Shown: positions 45,107 through 61,047, counted from the first letter of the stretch. The stretch is DNA of 64,000 nucleotides from Beijerinckiaceae bacterium (GCA_947452005.1 CANGBC010000002.1:186001-250000), one strand, 5' to 3'. Notes: generated by a model not told the origin, from the letters alone. Translations and numbers: made by a program.

Positions 45107-45131
45107 AAGAAAAATGATGGAGGAAAACAAG

Positions 45132-46067
45132 ATGAAACTGCACACCGCACTCCAGACGCTCGGCCATACGCAAGCGCTGAAAGACGGCACGATCCGCCCT
45201 GAAACCTTCGACTTCGAGTTTGAAGAAGTGCCAGCCATCATTCAGGCCTTCCGTCGCATGGTGCGTGGCCTTGAATTTGATATTTCGGAAATGGCCATCA
45301 CGACCTACCTCTGCGCCAAAGCGCATGGCAAAAAGTTCACGGCCATTCCGGTGTTCCCGTTCCGCGCCTTTCATCATGGCGCGATTGTCACCAACACAAA
45401 GCTTGGCATCACCGACCCGAAACAGCTGGAAGGCAAGAAAGTTGGCGTCAATCGCGGCTATACGGTGACGGCGGGTGTCTGGGCACGCTCCATCCTGCAG
45501 CATGATTATGGCGTTGACCTCTCCAAAATCACGTGGGTGCTGTCGGGCGATGAGCATGTGGCGGAATATAAAGCTCCGTCCAATGTCGTGCCGGTGGAAG
45601 CTGGCAAGAAGGTCGAAGATATGCTGCTGTCAGGCGAGCTCGCCGCAGCGTCCGGCGTCGTGATTGATCATCCCGACATCAAGCCGCTGATCCCCAATCC
45701 TGCCCAAGCAGGCTTTGAGGCTTTGCGCTTGCGTGGCCATTATCCGATCAACCACACATTGGTTGTGAAGGATGAATTGCTCGAAGCGCACCCCGGTCTG
45801 GCGAAAGACATTTTCGAGACCTTTGCGAAAGCCAAGCGCGCTTATGTCGAGACGCTGAAGGCTGGCATTGCTGAACCCACAAAGAATGACCAGACCGCGA
45901 TGAAGATCATGGAGATCACCGGCAAGGACCCGATGCCTTTTGGTGTCGAGCCCAACCGCGCCATGATTGAAGCGATCAATCAATATGCGACCGAACAACA
46001 GATCATCCCGCGCCCGTTCAAGATGGACGAGATCTGGGCCAAGGGCACGCTGGATCTGGTGGGGTAA
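45132..46067 (+). CDS. 4,5-dihydroxyphthalate decarboxylase-like / NMT1-type binding protein (paralog 2)
   Basis: MKLHTALQTLGHTQALKDGTIRPETFDFEFEEVPAIIQAFRRMVRGLEFDISEMAITTYLCAKAHGKKFTAIPVFPFRAFHHG; GGAGG upstream of ATG 45132 (ORF opens at 45114). Confidence 0.82.
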   Translation: MKLHTALQTLGHTQALKDGTIRPETFDFEFEEVPAIIQAFRRMVRGLEFDISEMAITTYLCAKAHGKKFTAIPVFPFRAFHHGAIVTNTKLGITDPKQLEGKKVGVNRGYTVTAGVWARSILQHDYGVDLSKITWVLSGDEHVAEYKAPSNVVPVEAGKKVEDMLLSGELAAASGVVIDHPDIKPLIPNPAQAGFEALRLRGHYPINHTLVVKDELLEAHPGLAKDIFETFAKAKRAYVETLKAGIAEPTKNDQTAMKIMEITGKDPMPFGVEPNRAMIEAINQYATEQQIIPRPFKMDEIWAKGTLDLVG

Positions 46068-50886: not shown

Positions 50887-52119
50887 ATGCAATCTCCTTT
50901 GTCTCAATACATCCGTTTTGTTGTGCGCTTTGTTTTGGCGCTCGGCCTTGCGTTGCCTGCGCTGCCAAGCTTTGCGGGAACACCGTCAGCCGATGAGCTG
51001 TCACACCGCCTTGCGCAAGCCAATCGGCAATCCCGCAACGCTTGGGCGCAGATGAATGCAGCCTATGGCTTGCTCGCGCGCAAAGACCCACGCGCCCTGC
51101 ACTATCTTGAACGCGCAGCAGAGCTGAAGCCGCGCGATACGAAAATTCTCGAACAGCTCGGCTATGCACGGCTGGCGGCCGGCAATCGCCGTGGTGCGAT
51201 CGCAGCTTTTCGTGCAGCGCTTGCGATGGATCCCAACAATGAAAGCCTGCGACTGCAGCTGGTCTATACGCAAGATGCGGAAGGTTTGCGTCGCGCGGCT
51301 GCAGAAGATGCCCGTCATGTTGCCATGGCGAGAGGCGCCCGCGCGGTTGAGGGATGCGCGGCTTGGAATACTCTGGCTGGACTGCCAGACCGCATCCTGC
51401 CCAAACCCTGGTTCACGGAAACTTATCTCGCACCAGAATATCGCGCGCATGATCGCTTGGGCGTCACGCCCCTGCAATTGCGCGTTGGGCGCGCGCTGAT
51501 CGGCGACGACATTTTGTCGGTCTACGGATCTATGCGCACCACATGGGACAGCCGCACGCATTATTCCGCAACATCGCAACAGGTCTTTTACGATGATGCG
51601 ATGATCTTTGCCGGCGGCCTGCGTCTGCGGCCATGGGAAGGCGCGCCCATCTTTGCTTTTCTTGAGCAGGGCGTTGCGGGAGACCTTTCACAGCGCAACC
51701 GCGCGCGCTGGCGCTCTGACACACGCACCGGGCTCGTGTTTGAAAGCGCCTGGGAAGCGGCACCCGCCTCGTGCACCGATCATGTGCGTTTTGTCTTCAC
51801 ACCCATCATCGATGTCTATGCCGAGACCATCTGGTTTTCGCGCTATCAGGACATGATTGCCTATGCGCGCGTGCGCCCTGGCGTGCGCGTGATGGAAACA
51901 TCCTTCGGTCATCTGGAAGCCTATGGCCTGGCTGCCATCACCCGCGACACTGCGGGGCGGCGCGACAATCGCTTCCATGAATTGGGCGCCGGCATTGCCT
52001 TCAAATTCCTGGCACCGCTGCGCATCACGTTCCGTGCAGAAGCTGTGCGGGTTTTTCAGACCGGCGCAGGCCATGTTCTGGATGGACGCGTGCGGCTCGA
52101 ACATGAGGTGCGCTTCTGA
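50887..52119 (+). CDS. NfrA-like (bacteriophage N4 adsorption protein A C-terminal-like) TPR plus outer-membrane protein
   Basis: Signal peptide; TPR segment RALHYLERAAELKPRDTKILEQLGYARLAAGNRRGAIAAFRAALAMDPNNESLRLQLVYT; C-terminal beta-rich region ending in aromatic F; translationally linked to NfrB-like gene. Confidence 0.75.
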   Translation: MQSPLSQYIRFVVRFVLALGLALPALPSFAGTPSADELSHRLAQANRQSRNAWAQMNAAYGLLARKDPRALHYLERAAELKPRDTKILEQLGYARLAAGNRRGAIAAFRAALAMDPNNESLRLQLVYTQDAEGLRRAAAEDARHVAMARGARAVEGCAAWNTLAGLPDRILPKPWFTETYLAPEYRAHDRLGVTPLQLRVGRALIGDDILSVYGSMRTTWDSRTHYSATSQQVFYDDAMIFAGGLRLRPWEGAPIFAFLEQGVAGDLSQRNRARWRSDTRTGLVFESAWEAAPASCTDHVRFVFTPIIDVYAETIWFSRYQDMIAYARVRPGVRVMETSFGHLEAYGLAAITRDTAGRRDNRFHELGAGIAFKFLAPLRITFRAEAVRVFQTGAGHVLDGRVRLEHEVRF

Positions 52120-53555
52120 TGTTCGAAACTTACCTCTCCACCATCCACATCGCCATTTGGGTGATTGCTATCATCTTCCTGCTCAGCGGGCTCGACGAGC
52201 TTGTGTTCGACGCGGCCTATATTGCCTGGAAATTCTATTATCGCTTCGTGCTGGTGCGCGGGAAGCAGCGCTTGCAGCTCGCCACCCTGCAAAACAAGCC
52301 CGAACAGACCGTCGCCATCATGGTCCCTGCTTGGCATGAGGAAGCGGTCATTGCCGCTATGGTGCGCAATGCGATCAAGACGATTGATTATCGCAATTTC
52401 ATCATTGTGGTTGGCGTCTACCCGAACGATCCGGGCACACGCGCGGCGCTGGATGTTGTCTTGGCTGAACATCCCGACCATGTGCGCGCCGCCATTGTGA
52501 GGAATGATGGCCCGACCACGAAATCAGATTGCCTGAATGCGATCCTGCGCGAAATTCGCGTCTGGGAACAAGAGACCGGCAAGGAAACGCAGATCTATGT
52601 TCTGCATGATGCCGAAGACCATGTGCCGCGCTATGGGCTCAAAGTGTTCAACTTCCTCATGCCCCGCAAAGCCATTGTGCAATTGCCGGTCTTTCCGCTG
52701 CATGTGCCGTGGTACTCGTTCACCGAGGGGCATTACCTCGATGAATTTGCGCAAGTGCATGTGAAAGATCTGCGCGTGCGCGAATGGCTGACGGGTGGCG
52801 TGCCCAGCGCGGGAGTCGGCACCGCCTTCAGCCGCGATGCCGTCAATATCGCCTGGCAGGAAGACATTGAAGGCGCGTTTCGTGAAGACCTGCTGACGGA
52901 AGATTATGAGATTGCCATGCAGCTTTTGCGGCGTGGTGCCCATTCAGCTTTCTTCGATGGCATTGTGCGCGGCGGCGATCTGCCCCCACCAGCCTTGCGC
53001 CTGTGGGCCATGCCCGGCGTGCCCGCTGTGCGTGGCGCCTTCCCCAATCGCTTCTGGGCGTCTGTGCGGCAAAAGACCCGCTGGACGCTGGGCATCACTT
53101 TGCAAGGCTGGGAAGATTTGGGCTGGGAAGGCTCGCCCTGGCAGAAATATCTGTTCTTTCGGGATCGCAAACCGCTGTTCACCAATATCGCCAATGTCGG
53201 CGCTTATTTTGTCGCCATTGCCTGGCTCGTGCCCTGGGCCATTGACCAATTGTTTTTCGACGCCAGCCTGCTGCCGCCGCTTTATGAAACCGGTTCAGCC
53301 TTGCACCAGCTTGTGATCACCAACATTACGATCCTGATGATCTTCATGGTCGTGCGTGCGCTGTGCACATTGCAAGCCTTTGGGCCAGCCCACGCACTCA
53401 TGTCTTTCCCGCGTCTGGTCTGGGCCAATTTCATCAACTTCGTCGCCACCGTGCGCGCGCTGCGTCAATATTTTGATGCACGGCGCAAGGGCATCAAACG
53501 AATCCCGTGGGAAAAAACAACACACGCCCTCGACCCCTTTGAGGCCAGTTCATGA
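52119..53555 (+). CDS. NfrB-like family 2 glycosyltransferase (N4 adsorption protein B N-terminal portion)
   Basis: FLLSGLDELVFDAAY, VAIMVPAWHEEAVIAAMVRNAIKTIDYRNFIIVVGVYPNDPGT, GPTTKSDCLNAIL, LHDAEDHVPRYGLKVFNFLM, LTGGVPSAGVGTAFSRDAV, LTEDYEIAMQLLRRG, SVRQKTRWTLGITLQGWEDLGW, WANFINFVATVRALRQY, PWEKTTHALD. Confidence 0.88.
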   Translation: MFETYLSTIHIAIWVIAIIFLLSGLDELVFDAAYIAWKFYYRFVLVRGKQRLQLATLQNKPEQTVAIMVPAWHEEAVIAAMVRNAIKTIDYRNFIIVVGVYPNDPGTRAALDVVLAEHPDHVRAAIVRNDGPTTKSDCLNAILREIRVWEQETGKETQIYVLHDAEDHVPRYGLKVFNFLMPRKAIVQLPVFPLHVPWYSFTEGHYLDEFAQVHVKDLRVREWLTGGVPSAGVGTAFSRDAVNIAWQEDIEGAFREDLLTEDYEIAMQLLRRGAHSAFFDGIVRGGDLPPPALRLWAMPGVPAVRGAFPNRFWASVRQKTRWTLGITLQGWEDLGWEGSPWQKYLFFRDRKPLFTNIANVGAYFVAIAWLVPWAIDQLFFDASLLPPLYETGSALHQLVITNITILMIFMVVRALCTLQAFGPAHALMSFPRLVWANFINFVATVRALRQYFDARRKGIKRIPWEKTTHALDPFEASS

Positions 53556-54730
53556 GAACATCCATGAAACGCTTATGCTCGCTCTTGGTAACAGCCCTTG
53601 TGATTTCGCTTGGCGGCGCACCCGCGCGCGCGCAAAAGGTTGCGACCGTTCTCATTGATGCCGAGTTTAGCCACCCCACCAGCACGTCGGCGCAAGCCAT
53701 CGAGCTGGGTGCCCGAATGGCGGCACGCGAGATCGAACAATCAGGGCTGCTGGGTGACATCCGCCTGGAAATTCGTACCAGTGACAATCGCGGTGTCTCC
53801 GCCATTGGCGTCGATAATTTTCTCGATGCGGCGAAAGATCCCTCCGTCATTGCCGTGATGGGGGGCAAATTCAGTCCCGTGCAGATTGAAGTTGTTCCCT
53901 ATGCCCATTCAGAAAAGCTGATCTTGCTCGACCCCTGGGGTTCAGCCGATGGCATTGTCGACAATGGTTATCGACCCAATTGGGCGTTTCGTCTGTCCCT
54001 CAAGGATGAATGGGCGAGCCAGGCTTTCGTGCAGACCGCCAAAAAGCTGGGTGCGCGCCAGATCGGCGTGATCTTGCCCAACACAGCATGGGGGCGCAGC
54101 ACACAGACAGCGCTCGCCGCGCAAGCACGCACCAGCGCCCTGCGCATTGTTGGTGAGCGCTGGTATAATTGGGGCGAGACCTCGCTAATCCAGCGCTATC
54201 AAGATCTGATTGCCGATGGCGCCGAGATCATTGTGCTGGTCGCCAATGAGATTGAGGGCTCCATCCTCGTGCGCGAAGTCGCGCAAGTGCCCGAAAATCA
54301 GCGCCGCCCCATTCTCTCGCACTGGGGTGTGACGGGCGGCAATTTTGAAAAGCTGGCGCCGCAAGTCAGCGGCCTTGATTTCCGTGTCGTGCAAACATTC
54401 TCGTTCCACAAGCCGCGCACGGAAAAGGCCAAAGCCTTTTTGCGTGACGTGATGGCGGCCACAGGCAAGAGCGCGATTGGCGAGATCGACAGCCCGGCTG
54501 GCATTGCGCATGCCTATGATCTGACCTGGATGGTGGGGAAAGCCATTGCCAAGGCGGGCAGCACGGACCGCGACAAGATCCGTGATGCGCTGGAGACGCT
54601 TGGTCCGCATGAAGGGGTTGTGCGCAACTATCCAAAACCTTTCTCCGCAGACTCTCACGAAGCCTTGTCGAAAGACGAGGTGTTTTTTGCGCGCTTCCGG
54701 GCCGAAAACGGCTTGGTGCCGGAGGACTGA
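53552..54730 (+). CDS. Periplasmic ligand-binding protein (Leu/Ile/Val-BP, Peripla_BP_6-like)
   Basis: Signal peptide; ELGARMAAREIEQSGLLGDIRLEIRTSDNRG; DPSVIAVMGGKFSPVQIEVVPYAHSEKLILLDPWGSADGI; no ABC permease or ATPase nearby. Confidence 0.85.
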   Translation: MRTSMKRLCSLLVTALVISLGGAPARAQKVATVLIDAEFSHPTSTSAQAIELGARMAAREIEQSGLLGDIRLEIRTSDNRGVSAIGVDNFLDAAKDPSVIAVMGGKFSPVQIEVVPYAHSEKLILLDPWGSADGIVDNGYRPNWAFRLSLKDEWASQAFVQTAKKLGARQIGVILPNTAWGRSTQTALAAQARTSALRIVGERWYNWGETSLIQRYQDLIADGAEIIVLVANEIEGSILVREVAQVPENQRRPILSHWGVTGGNFEKLAPQVSGLDFRVVQTFSFHKPRTEKAKAFLRDVMAATGKSAIGEIDSPAGIAHAYDLTWMVGKAIAKAGSTDRDKIRDALETLGPHEGVVRNYPKPFSADSHEALSKDEVFFARFRAENGLVPED

Positions 54731-56241
54731 TGAAATTCTTTCGGCGCGCCGACTGGACAATTGAACGCACGATCCGCAATGGCATTGTGACGATCTCTTC
54801 AACAGCTGTGTTGCTGACGGCCTCGCTTGCCTGGAAATTGGCCCATGATGCAGGCCAAGAAACATTGCGCGAAGTGACCGAATTGTCGATTGAAACAACG
54901 CAAAACCGCGTTGCCAATGTCGTCACCCGGCACATCCGCGAATTTGAGCAGATTGCATCATCCAATGTCATCGCCACAGCGCTGACCGATTCCAGTGGCC
55001 GCGAGGGCTATCTGGCGCCCTTCCTCGAGCAGCGCACGCAAGCCACCGGCCTGACGTTTGCGATCTTTGATTATCGCGGGCGCATGTTGATCCGCACCGG
55101 TGGCGGCAGTGACGTGCCTGCACCGCCCAGCTGGGTGAAAGAGGCCACGCAGGTGCCTGACCTCGATTTTTCAGCGGGGCCAGACAATGTTGCCTTTGCA
55201 GCACCGATCCGTTTTTTTGCTGACAACAAGCCCATTGGCTTTCTGACCGCGCGCATCCCGCCTGCGGTTTTGGCTGCCGATTCTGATCTGCTGTCGTCAA
55301 AGTTTTTCACGGCCAAAGTCAGCTTCTACACAACCGAAACATATGAGCCGCAACCACTTCATGTGAAAATTTCTGACACCGGCAAGAAAGTGCTTGCGGC
55401 CAGGATTGAACTCGAACCGCAGATGTCCTGGCTTGATGCGACACTGCAAAAAATGACGACGCTCGGCATTCTGGCAACCATCACCATTCTCATGTCTGGC
55501 CTTTTAATGGCGCGCTGGAGCGCCCATCTCATCGCCTCGCCGATCCGCGAATTGACGCAAGCTGTCAAACAATTGCGCGAGGGCCATGATGTGAGCGCCC
55601 CCAAGGGCGAGATGCCGGTCGAGATCAACACATTGTCGGCAGCCCTGTTTCTCGCATTCGAAGAGCGCGGCGCTGCTCTCAACAAGCTGCAAAATCTGGC
55701 CCATTACGACAGTCTGACAGGCACGCTGAGTCGCGCCTATTTTGATCACCAGGCACGCAACATGCTGCAGATCGCGGCGCGCAATGATGCCACAGCCACT
55801 CTCGTCTATCTTGATCTCGATCGCTTCAAGGCCATCAACGATACCTACGGACATGACGCCGGCGACATTCTGCTCACGACCATCACAACGCGCATTCAAA
55901 GACGCTTGCGCACCAATGATCTGATCGGGCGGCGCGGCGGTGATGAATTTGTTCTGCTGCTTTCACCTCTGGGCGACCACGGCGACATCGGCACGCTGGC
56001 TTATGATCTTTCGCGGATGATCACCATGCCCGTCGATATTGGCAATGGCATTTCCGTCAGCGTCGGTGTGTCGATGGGGGCCGCAACCTATCCCGATGAT
56101 TCGCAAAACTACAACGATCTCGTCACATTGGCCGATCAGGCGATGTACGAATCCAAAAAATTTGGCCGCGGGCGCATGACCTTTGCCTCCGGCCCCACTG
56201 TGCCGCTCGCCTCGCAGGACTGGACGGCTTCCACCGACTGA
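54730..56241 (+). CDS. Membrane diguanylate cyclase: periplasmic sensor region, HAMP-like linker, GGDEF domain
   Basis: N-terminal TM and second TM near MTTLGILATITILMSGLLMARWS; LAHYDSLTGTLSRAYFD; RTNDLIGRRGGDEFVLLL with GGDEF active site and RxxD I-site. Confidence 0.92.
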   Translation: MKFFRRADWTIERTIRNGIVTISSTAVLLTASLAWKLAHDAGQETLREVTELSIETTQNRVANVVTRHIREFEQIASSNVIATALTDSSGREGYLAPFLEQRTQATGLTFAIFDYRGRMLIRTGGGSDVPAPPSWVKEATQVPDLDFSAGPDNVAFAAPIRFFADNKPIGFLTARIPPAVLAADSDLLSSKFFTAKVSFYTTETYEPQPLHVKISDTGKKVLAARIELEPQMSWLDATLQKMTTLGILATITILMSGLLMARWSAHLIASPIRELTQAVKQLREGHDVSAPKGEMPVEINTLSAALFLAFEERGAALNKLQNLAHYDSLTGTLSRAYFDHQARNMLQIAARNDATATLVYLDLDRFKAINDTYGHDAGDILLTTITTRIQRRLRTNDLIGRRGGDEFVLLLSPLGDHGDIGTLAYDLSRMITMPVDIGNGISVSVGVSMGAATYPDDSQNYNDLVTLADQAMYESKKFGRGRMTFASGPTVPLASQDWTASTD

Positions 56242-56255
56242 AACGGAACAGTGCC

Positions 56256-57356
56256 ATGACCAAACCCCTCATTGCCCTTGTCGGCACACGCCCGGAAGCC
56301 ATCAAAATGGCGCCTGTCATTCAGGCGCTTCGCCGCGATGGCACACATGATGTGCGAGTGGTTTCAACGGGCCAGCATCGCGAAATGCTGCGCCAGACGT
56401 TAGGCATTTTCAACATCACACCCGACGCCGAACTCGACGTGATGCAGCCCAATCAATCTCTGGCGACCTTGACCGCCAACCTCTTCAGAACACTTGATCC
56501 GCTGATCGAACAGCTCAACCCCGCCATGATGATTGCGCAGGGCGACACAACCTCCGTCATGGTCGCTTCCATCTGCTCTTTCTATCGTCGCCTTCCGTTC
56601 GCACATGTTGAGGCAGGCTTGCGCACAGGCGACATCGACAGCCCCTTCCCGGAAGAATTCAACCGCATTGTCGCCGGGCGGCTCGCGGCTCTGCATTTCG
56701 CACCCACCCAGCGCGCGGTGGATAATCTGAAGCGCGAACACATTACGCAGGGCGTGCACCTCACCGGCAATACGGTGATTGATGCCTTGCTATGGGCGGC
56801 CGAGCGCGCCGGTCCGCCCCCACTCACCTTGCGTGAAGGCCAGCGGCTTGTGCTGGTCACCTGTCATCGGCGCGAGAATTTCGGCGTCCCGCTCGGGCGC
56901 ATCTTTGGCGCGCTGAAGCGCATTGTTGCAGCCGCCCCTGATTGCGAGATTATTTATCCCGTGCACCCCAACCCCAATGTGCGCGACCGCGCGCATGCGG
57001 AATTGGGCGGCATCAGCCGCATCCATCTCGTCGAGCCGCTTGATTACAGTGATCTCGTCGCGGCCATGAAACATGCCACCCTTGTGCTGACCGACAGCGG
57101 CGGCATTCAGGAGGAAGCGCCATCGCTGAAAAAACCGGTGCTCGTGTTGCGTGAAAGCACGGAGCGACCCGAGGCGGTCGAGAGTGGCGTCGCCGCCATT
57201 GCTGGCACGGATGAAGATCTGATCTTCACCAAAGCCATGCGGTTGCTCACCGACAAGGCCCATTATGCCAGCATGGCGACGGGCGCCAATCCGTATGGCG
57301 ACGGCCACGCTGCCCTCCGGATTGTTAAAGCCATCAACGCCTATCTGAAGCGATAA
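56256..57356 (+). CDS. wecB: UDP-N-acetylglucosamine 2-epimerase (non-hydrolysing)
   Basis: LVGTRPEAIKMAPVIQAL, STGQHREML, QGDTTS, HVEAGLRTGDIDSPFPEEFNR, TCHRRENFG, VHPNPNVR, LTDSGGIQEEAPSLKKPVLVLRESTERPE. Confidence 0.95.
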   Translation: MTKPLIALVGTRPEAIKMAPVIQALRRDGTHDVRVVSTGQHREMLRQTLGIFNITPDAELDVMQPNQSLATLTANLFRTLDPLIEQLNPAMMIAQGDTTSVMVASICSFYRRLPFAHVEAGLRTGDIDSPFPEEFNRIVAGRLAALHFAPTQRAVDNLKREHITQGVHLTGNTVIDALLWAAERAGPPPLTLREGQRLVLVTCHRRENFGVPLGRIFGALKRIVAAAPDCEIIYPVHPNPNVRDRAHAELGGISRIHLVEPLDYSDLVAAMKHATLVLTDSGGIQEEAPSLKKPVLVLRESTERPEAVESGVAAIAGTDEDLIFTKAMRLLTDKAHYASMATGANPYGDGHAALRIVKAINAYLKR

Positions 57357-60153: not shown

Positions 60154-61047
60154 TCAGACGCCCAGAACGGCGCGTGATTCCTTAAACAGGTCTTCAAGCG
60201 CGTAACGCTCGGGAATGATCTTCTGCTCGTAGGCCAGTTGCACAACCAGCTCAAGCGAGGGGGCGATCACATCATAGCCAACAGGGCGCATATCGATGGC
60301 GCCTGCTGCCACTGGGGCTGCCTCTTTGCTTTTGACAAAGAGATCATAAATCTCGCGCACGGTCTCAGGGCGCGACTGCAACAGCTCGCGCTTGACGCAT
60401 AGAATATGATTGATCGGCAAAAGGCCTGTCGCCTTGTGCCAGGCAAGGCCGGCATTTTTGGCATCGGGAATGACAGCCTTGATCTTGGGATCATCTGGCA
60501 AATCATTCCCCAGAATGCCCGCATCAATTTCGCCTGACATCAGCATGGGCAAAAGCTTGGTGCCTGCGGGCGCACGGGTGACGAACGACGGCTCCTGATA
60601 TTCGGCCAGATGCGCGCCTTCAAAAATCGTCCAATTCACGCTCTCAAGATCGAGACCATGCTCTTGCGACAGAATGTTGCGCACCCACGCGCCTGTGGTT
60701 TGCGTATAGGCGCGCACACCGACCTTTTTGCCCAGCAACACGTCGGGCGTCAGCTCTTTGTGGAAGTCCGTGTTGTAAACAATGCAGCCGTGCTGAAAGC
60801 GCGAGGCCAAAACAACCGGCAACATGACAATCGGCTTCTTGTAGGCATAGGCCTGCAGGAAGGTGAAGACAGCCATTTCACTGACGTCAAACTTCTGCTC
60901 ACGCGCCATGGGCTTGAAAGCATCGTGAATGGGTTCGATCTCGTGAAATTCGAAATCAAAATTGGCCGACTTCACTTTGCCATTCAGCAAAGCTTCGGTC
61001 GTGGGATAGCGCTTGAGTGCGCAAGACAGGGCCATGTGGCTCATCAC
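60154..61047 (-). CDS. 4,5-dihydroxyphthalate decarboxylase-like / NMT1-type binding protein (paralog 3)
   Basis: MALSCALKRYPTTEALLNGKVKSANFDFEFHEIEPIHDAFKPMAREQKFDVSEMAVFTFLQAYAYKKPIVMLPVVLASRFQHG. Confidence 0.82.
   Translation of the reverse strand: MMSHMALSCALKRYPTTEALLNGKVKSANFDFEFHEIEPIHDAFKPMAREQKFDVSEMAVFTFLQAYAYKKPIVMLPVVLASRFQHGCIVYNTDFHKELTPDVLLGKKVGVRAYTQTTGAWVRNILSQEHGLDLESVNWTIFEGAHLAEYQEPSFVTRAPAGTKLLPMLMSGEIDAGILGNDLPDDPKIKAVIPDAKNAGLAWHKATGLLPINHILCVKRELLQSRPETVREIYDLFVKSKEAAPVAAGAIDMRPVGYDVIAPSLELVVQLAYEQKIIPERYALEDLFKESRAVLGV

Follow-up and report, generated by a model that had tools for sequence, protein, structure and literature searches.

How could a synthase of the Nfr type be controlled by cyclic di-GMP (c-di-GMP) when it has no receptor domain for this molecule? 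The question is raised by five genes at positions 50887-57356 of a 64,000-nucleotide stretch of DNA from a Beijerinckiaceae bacterium (GCA_947452005.1 CANGBC010000002.1:186001-250000), the whole of which is called the window here. Sequence comparison confirms that they form a conserved operon of a known kind, for Nfr-type exopolysaccharide synthesis and export. The reading that we favour, with a probability of about 0.55, is that the operon makes a glycan by the Nfr route, that a solute-binding protein (SBP) drives its cyclase, and that c-di-GMP is read by a separate PilZ protein, which acts on a short NfrB in trans. The Nfr glycan, a surface polymer that depends on c-di-GMP and serves as a phage receptor, has been recognised only recently. 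In E. coli the system, known as NGR/Nfr, consists of nfrBA-ybcH with wecB (nfrC) and dgcJ and provides both the exopolysaccharide and the receptor of phage N4; its NfrB depends on WecB, on c-di-GMP and on a single cyclase, DgcJ (PMC8669469, PMC8669472). The window belongs to a 2.03-Mb metagenome-assembled genome that is 58% complete, and negative results for this genome refer to that portion; comparisons were made with 149 genomes of the family and 51 congeneric genomes.

The operon and its short synthase

The genes are closely spaced and encode the following proteins.

50887-52119, plus strand: NfrA/BcsC-like outer-membrane exporter, 410 amino acids (aa), predicted from TPR repeats, a modelled beta-barrel, a BcsC fold match and an NfrA profile match
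52119-53555, plus strand: short NfrB-type family 2 glycosyltransferase (GT2), a membrane synthase, 478 aa, assigned by NCBIfam, catalytic motifs and tree
53552-54730, plus strand: Peripla_BP_6 SBP, presumed periplasmic ligand sensor of the adjoining cyclase, 392 aa, assigned by Pfam (99 bits) and gene neighbourhood
54730-56241, plus strand: membrane diguanylate cyclase with HAMP and GGDEF, 503 aa, assigned by domains, predicted model and a YfiN/TpbB fold match
56256-57356, plus strand: WecB-type non-hydrolysing UDP-GlcNAc 2-epimerase (Epimerase_2), 366 aa, assigned by TIGR00236 and a match to structure 1f6d

The open reading frames lie exactly where the first-pass annotation, made from the sequence alone, had placed them, with overlaps of 1 nt, 4 nt and 1 nt at the first three junctions and a gap of 14 nt at the fourth. 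The same genes in the same order (NfrA, glycosyltransferase (GT), SBP, cyclase, WecB) are found in the congener locus L001, with amino-acid identities of 69-85%, as the annotation's idea of a co-conserved group implied. In the codon comparison of the window with L001, the ratio of nonsynonymous to synonymous substitution rates (dN/dS) is 0.16, 0.11, 0.09, 0.10 and 0.11 for genes 1 to 5, so all five are evidently under purifying selection and encode maintained proteins, and since the order recurs under such low ratios the grouping is not due to chance. No promoter-like site was found upstream of 50887, and promoter and terminator counts are close to those of shuffled sequence.

The GT scores 420.6 bits with the NCBIfam NfrB model and 423 bits with PRK15489 (range 420-424), which reaches neither the NfrB equivalog cut-off of 1170 bits nor those set for the shorter PRK14716 models. 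Pfam finds Glyco_tranf_2_3, and the protein aligns with residues 5-475 of E. coli NfrB at 36% identity. The DxD, TED and QxxRW motifs of the GT2 domain are all kept, as D164-A-E-D167 (HDAED), T260-E-D262 and Q318-K-T-R-W322 (QKTRW), and the catalytic residues are invariant relative to E. coli NfrB. A score of only 17 bits with PgaC rules out a poly-N-acetylglucosamine or cellulose synthase, in agreement with the NfrB-like GT2 first proposed. No match came from searching the PDB directly with the GT sequence.

The MshEN domain of E. coli NfrB binds c-di-GMP with a dissociation constant of 1 uM, and its mutation impairs N4 infection; the domain is present in 1,705 of 1,841 homologues and missing from about 136 (PMC8669469, Junkermeier and Hengge). 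Neither Pfam nor the alignment finds it in the GT of the window, which stops at 478 aa, ahead of the position of this domain in E. coli NfrB, and no MshEN encoded elsewhere was found in the window genome. The label "c-di-GMP-controlled" in the first-pass annotation was taken over from E. coli NfrB, in which MshEN is the site of control, and in that form it is not supported. In the tree, the eight short GTs of Beijerinckiaceae form one clade with 100/100 support, and since all of them are without the C-terminus, its lack in the window is not a local truncation. This clade sits on a long separate branch beside, not inside, the clade of MshEN-bearing NfrBs, and a loss of MshEN from this NfrB is therefore not claimed. 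Long NfrBs are also found in Beijerinckiaceae, with MshEN detected by Pfam in L019 and by a profile built here in L018.

Protein 1 has TPR repeats in Pfam; Pfam NfrA_C has no match in this protein or in the window genome. A comparison of alignment profiles relates it to a set of NfrA proteins with 98% probability, and its AlphaFold2 model (pLDDT 75, pTM 0.55) has an N-terminal signal helix, TPR helices at about 35-163, about 12 beta strands at 175-409 and a C-terminal R-F. The top PDB fold match in Foldseek is BcsC (9b8a/9b8h, E 3e-7), with low TM-scores of 0.27-0.38 and a root-mean-square deviation above 11, which means a likeness of architecture and not a close superposition. On the model, protein 1 is a TPR protein with a predicted outer-membrane beta-barrel of NfrA/BcsC architecture, so the earlier NfrA-like assignment is upheld by fold and profile, not by the Pfam domain.

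Protein 5, first described as a non-hydrolysing UDP-GlcNAc 2-epimerase, is one: it scores 436.7 bits with TIGR00236 (wecB), for which the cut-off is 210, and matches the E. coli WecB structure 1f6d with E 4.9e-105. It would supply UDP-N-acetylmannosamine (UDP-ManNAc), and we infer both substrate and polymer identity by analogy with E. coli. The operon could instead make an exopolysaccharide other than a ManNAc homopolymer, if the substrate of the short GT is a different nucleotide sugar or if WecB supplies some other glycan. The limited identity to E. coli NfrB and the long separate branch would fit this alternative, which we consider unlikely, since the short GT has a WecB gene beside it in the window, L001, L003 and L014-L017, as do most long NfrBs, and the linkage of nfrB with wecB is published, wecB being next to nfrB wherever any other wecB pathway is absent (PMC8669469).

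A solute-binding protein paired with a cyclase

The Peripla_BP_6-like protein and the membrane GGDEF protein of the first-pass annotation are both borne out. The cyclase, as seen in its sequence and predicted model, is built of a helix, a periplasmic alpha/beta domain at about 40-232, a second helix, HAMP and GGDEF, the last of which matches the fold of YfiN/TpbB (7a7e). Both the active-site motif G403-G-D-E-F407 and the RxxD inhibitory site (I-site) R394-T-N-D397 are intact. In the fold search for the class of the periplasmic domain, all the matches listed are cyclases or GGDEF-containing proteins, and none names a sensor class.

Eight genomes of the family sample, that of the window and seven with close relatives (46-61% identity), encode this SBP. 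In all eight, the adjoining gene is for a membrane protein with GGDEF or GGDEF-EAL, the periplasmic domain of which is related to the one in the window cyclase (profile E between 1e-134 and 6e-6); such pairs are seen in the window, L001, L003 and L060-L065. Because of this constant neighbour with its related periplasmic domain, the SBP most likely serves the cyclase and belongs with it, not with the exporter. A role as part of an ABC importer was considered and rejected, as ABC transporter genes adjoin only the distant homologues (31-34% identity; L066, L067). The partner of this SBP in the sister genus is a PAS-GGDEF-EAL protein and not a plain cyclase (L060:6664-9393, L062:4966-7683, L063:10717-13446), which suggests gain or loss of domains around a conserved periplasmic sensor in the partners of the SBP.

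The SBP is present in 6/6 genomes of the family sample with a short NfrB, even where the two are unlinked, against 2/143 of the others (Fisher 2e-9, kinship ignored), and the two genomes with a long NfrB (G003, G082) are without it.

PilZ proteins as candidate receptors

Short NfrB is encoded in 4/51 congeneric genomes, a fifth match, 33% identical, being a different GT, and an intact PilZ protein of one subfamily is found in exactly these four. The PilZ gene lies inside or beside the nfr cluster in two of them and is unlinked in the other two. In L003, a PilZ protein of 129 aa is encoded between cyclase and exporter; in L002, the gene is divergent and 45 bp from nfrA; in the window genome, the reciprocal best match is at G000:C3:149102-149473. 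The c-di-GMP motifs of PilZ (RxxxR and [D/N]xSxxG) are kept as RFKAR/DISDVG in the window genome, RFQAR/DISESG in L003 and RLGAR/NVSEEG in L002, and between the window genome and G875 the PilZ genes have a dN/dS of 0.10. G885, a congener that has no short GT, bears at the same syntenic site a decayed PilZ gene (L110:8400-8840, G885:C6), which is frameshifted and altered at further conserved positions, with 67% nucleotide identity compared with 78-87% in the flanks. Because PilZ is intact only alongside short NfrB and decayed in G885, the simplest reading is that it works with short NfrB, where it would substitute for MshEN.

PilZ also occurs as a C-terminal domain of a BcsA-like GT2 with an HlyD-like partner, which is encoded at L003:1197-4518 (minus strand), divergent from the nfr cluster, and, unlinked to the operon, in the window genome at L059:11192-14448 (minus strand; G000:C8).

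The favoured reading draws on protein families, catalytic motifs, the TPR-barrel fold, the missing MshEN, operon conservation, SBP-cyclase pairing and PilZ co-occurrence, all obtained by sequence analysis and structure prediction. An external solute would be bound in the periplasm by the Peripla_BP_6 protein, which would dock on the periplasmic domain of the adjoining cyclase and change its c-di-GMP output. As the short NfrB is without the MshEN receptor domain, c-di-GMP would be read by the separate small PilZ protein, which would activate the synthase in trans. UDP-ManNAc made by WecB would be polymerised by the short NfrB in the membrane, and the TPR/beta-barrel protein would carry the chain through the outer membrane to give a surface polysaccharide. 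The I-site of the cyclase and, in L003, an EAL protein would limit the signal. The contact of SBP with cyclase, that of PilZ with synthase and the direction of regulation are all putative. The more specific proposal, that a free-standing PilZ lets c-di-GMP switch this NfrB branch, with the SBP-driven cyclase in the same operon, as a ligand-to-glycan circuit with an exchanged receptor, is tentative and falls somewhat short of even odds.

Several points weigh against PilZ control of the short NfrB. The PilZ gene of the window genome itself is unlinked to the operon; no PilZ of this subfamily was found at E<=1e-5 in three sister-genus genomes with a short NfrB (G011, G052, G084), in which there is also no SBP-cyclase pair beside that gene. 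The four congeners with PilZ and short NfrB may form one clade, the co-occurrence counts are drawn from few lineages (genera g1, g5, g12) without correction for relatedness, and the frameshift in G885 may partly reflect faulty assembly. The short GT, standing outside the MshEN-bearing clade, may never have had c-di-GMP control, and the polymer, its substrate and a c-di-GMP response are all putative.

The short NfrB might be free of c-di-GMP control altogether, with the SBP-cyclase pair as a separate sensory module on a shared transcript, which feeds the general c-di-GMP pool, and with PilZ acting elsewhere, for example with the BcsA-like PilZ synthase, whose gene and HlyD partner flank L003. 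The missing MshEN agrees with this, as does the SBP-GGDEF-EAL pair that is unlinked from any GT in G011, G052, G084, G004, G046 and G081, the last two of which are without the short GT. It is nevertheless judged rather unlikely, as the SBP and cyclase joined the operon as overlapping genes, PilZ and EAL genes also lie within the L003 cluster, and across the 51 congeners PilZ follows the short GT and decays where the latter is absent. Direct contact appears quite improbable. Here the membrane cyclase would bind the short NfrB in the way published for DgcJ and NfrB of E. coli (PMC8669469), the receptor would be the cyclase, through its I-site, or some site on the GT that has escaped recognition, and PilZ would be incidental. 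The cyclase gene lies in the same operon, its I-site is intact and g12 genomes are without this PilZ, but in E. coli the contact merely localises c-di-GMP production and MshEN is the receptor (PMC8669469), and direct contact leaves the PilZ co-occurrence unexplained.

If PilZ control of the short NfrB is correct, fused (MshEN) and separate (PilZ) receptors could be compared within one type of synthase, and the glycan would be tied to a specific external ligand, which makes the coupling of signal to glycan directly testable.

Known systems, relatives and neighbouring genes

The operon resembles E. coli Nfr in having an NfrB-type GT2 whose catalytic motifs are shared, a TPR and beta-barrel exporter, WecB and a membrane cyclase. 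It differs in the lack of MshEN, in an exporter of 410 aa compared with 990 in E. coli, in having wecB and the cyclase gene within the operon, the cyclase paired with an SBP, and in the lack of YbcH, for which a tblastn search of the window with the E. coli protein gave no match at 1e-5; the SBP is a protein unrelated to YbcH.

The first-pass annotation also proposed a self-contained module, which might double as a phage receptor. Precursor synthesis, polymerisation, export and a cyclase are indeed packed together, but since NfrB here has no MshEN the module has no c-di-GMP receptor of its own, the best candidate being the unlinked PilZ. Nor is the packaging new, because nfr genes clustered with wecB and a cyclase gene are published for Pseudomonas, in the order wecB-nfrB-nfrA-ybcH-GGDEF, and most pseudomonads have a GGDEF gene together with the nfr operon (PMC8669469). 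L112 is a non-alphaproteobacterial case of this order (WecB-NfrB(MshEN)-NfrA-YbcH-GGDEF). Pseudomonas operons thus share with the window the packing of wecB and a cyclase gene with synthase and exporter, and differ from it in NfrBs that bear MshEN, in the presence of ybcH and in having no SBP. The novelty lies in the way the receptor is proposed to be arranged and in the pair presumed to take in the ligand.

In the BcsA/BcsC cellulose and Alg44 alginate systems, PilZ is the c-di-GMP receptor for a GT2 synthase. The window shares the TPR-barrel exporter with them and differs from both systems in its NfrB-like GT and in a candidate PilZ that is free-standing and soluble, neither fused to the synthase nor anchored in the membrane. 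NspS is a polyamine-binding SBP, and in the NspS-MbaA pair of Vibrio cholerae and Sinorhizobium meliloti, as in the window, a periplasmic SBP gene goes together with a gene for a membrane protein with GGDEF or GGDEF-EAL. The likeness is one of gene layout, as the SBP of the window is a Peripla_BP_6 protein and its cyclase has no EAL domain and lies within an exopolysaccharide operon. NspS-MbaA affects exopolysaccharide and biofilm (PMC8967002, PMC9993111).

Among relatives, genes for sensor, cyclase, PilZ and phosphodiesterase gather in varied arrangements around this GT2 synthase without a built-in receptor. The order in L003 is SBP-DGC-PilZ-NfrA-GT-EAL-WecB (DGC, diguanylate cyclase), which places cyclase, PilZ and phosphodiesterase alongside the synthase; that in L002 is NfrA-GT-SBP, followed by the contig end. 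In two other genera, the gene order around the short GT is NfrA-WecB-GT or WecB-NfrA-GT, with no SBP-cyclase pair there, and the alphaproteobacterial locus L069 has the order cyclase-WecB-NfrB-NfrA. Many long-form nfr loci (L018, L019, L071, L076-L078, L113, L115, L116, L118) have between wecB and nfrB a gene for a BcsB-like periplasmic protein of about 750 aa (weak PF03170), which has no counterpart in E. coli nfrBA-ybcH.

The operon is flanked by genes for two similar proteins of about 300 aa, at 45114-46067 (plus strand) and 60154-61047 (minus strand), which by eye resemble substrate-binding or dihydroxyphthalate-decarboxylase-like proteins. A TctC-like receptor and an amidohydrolase are encoded near the L001 cassette.

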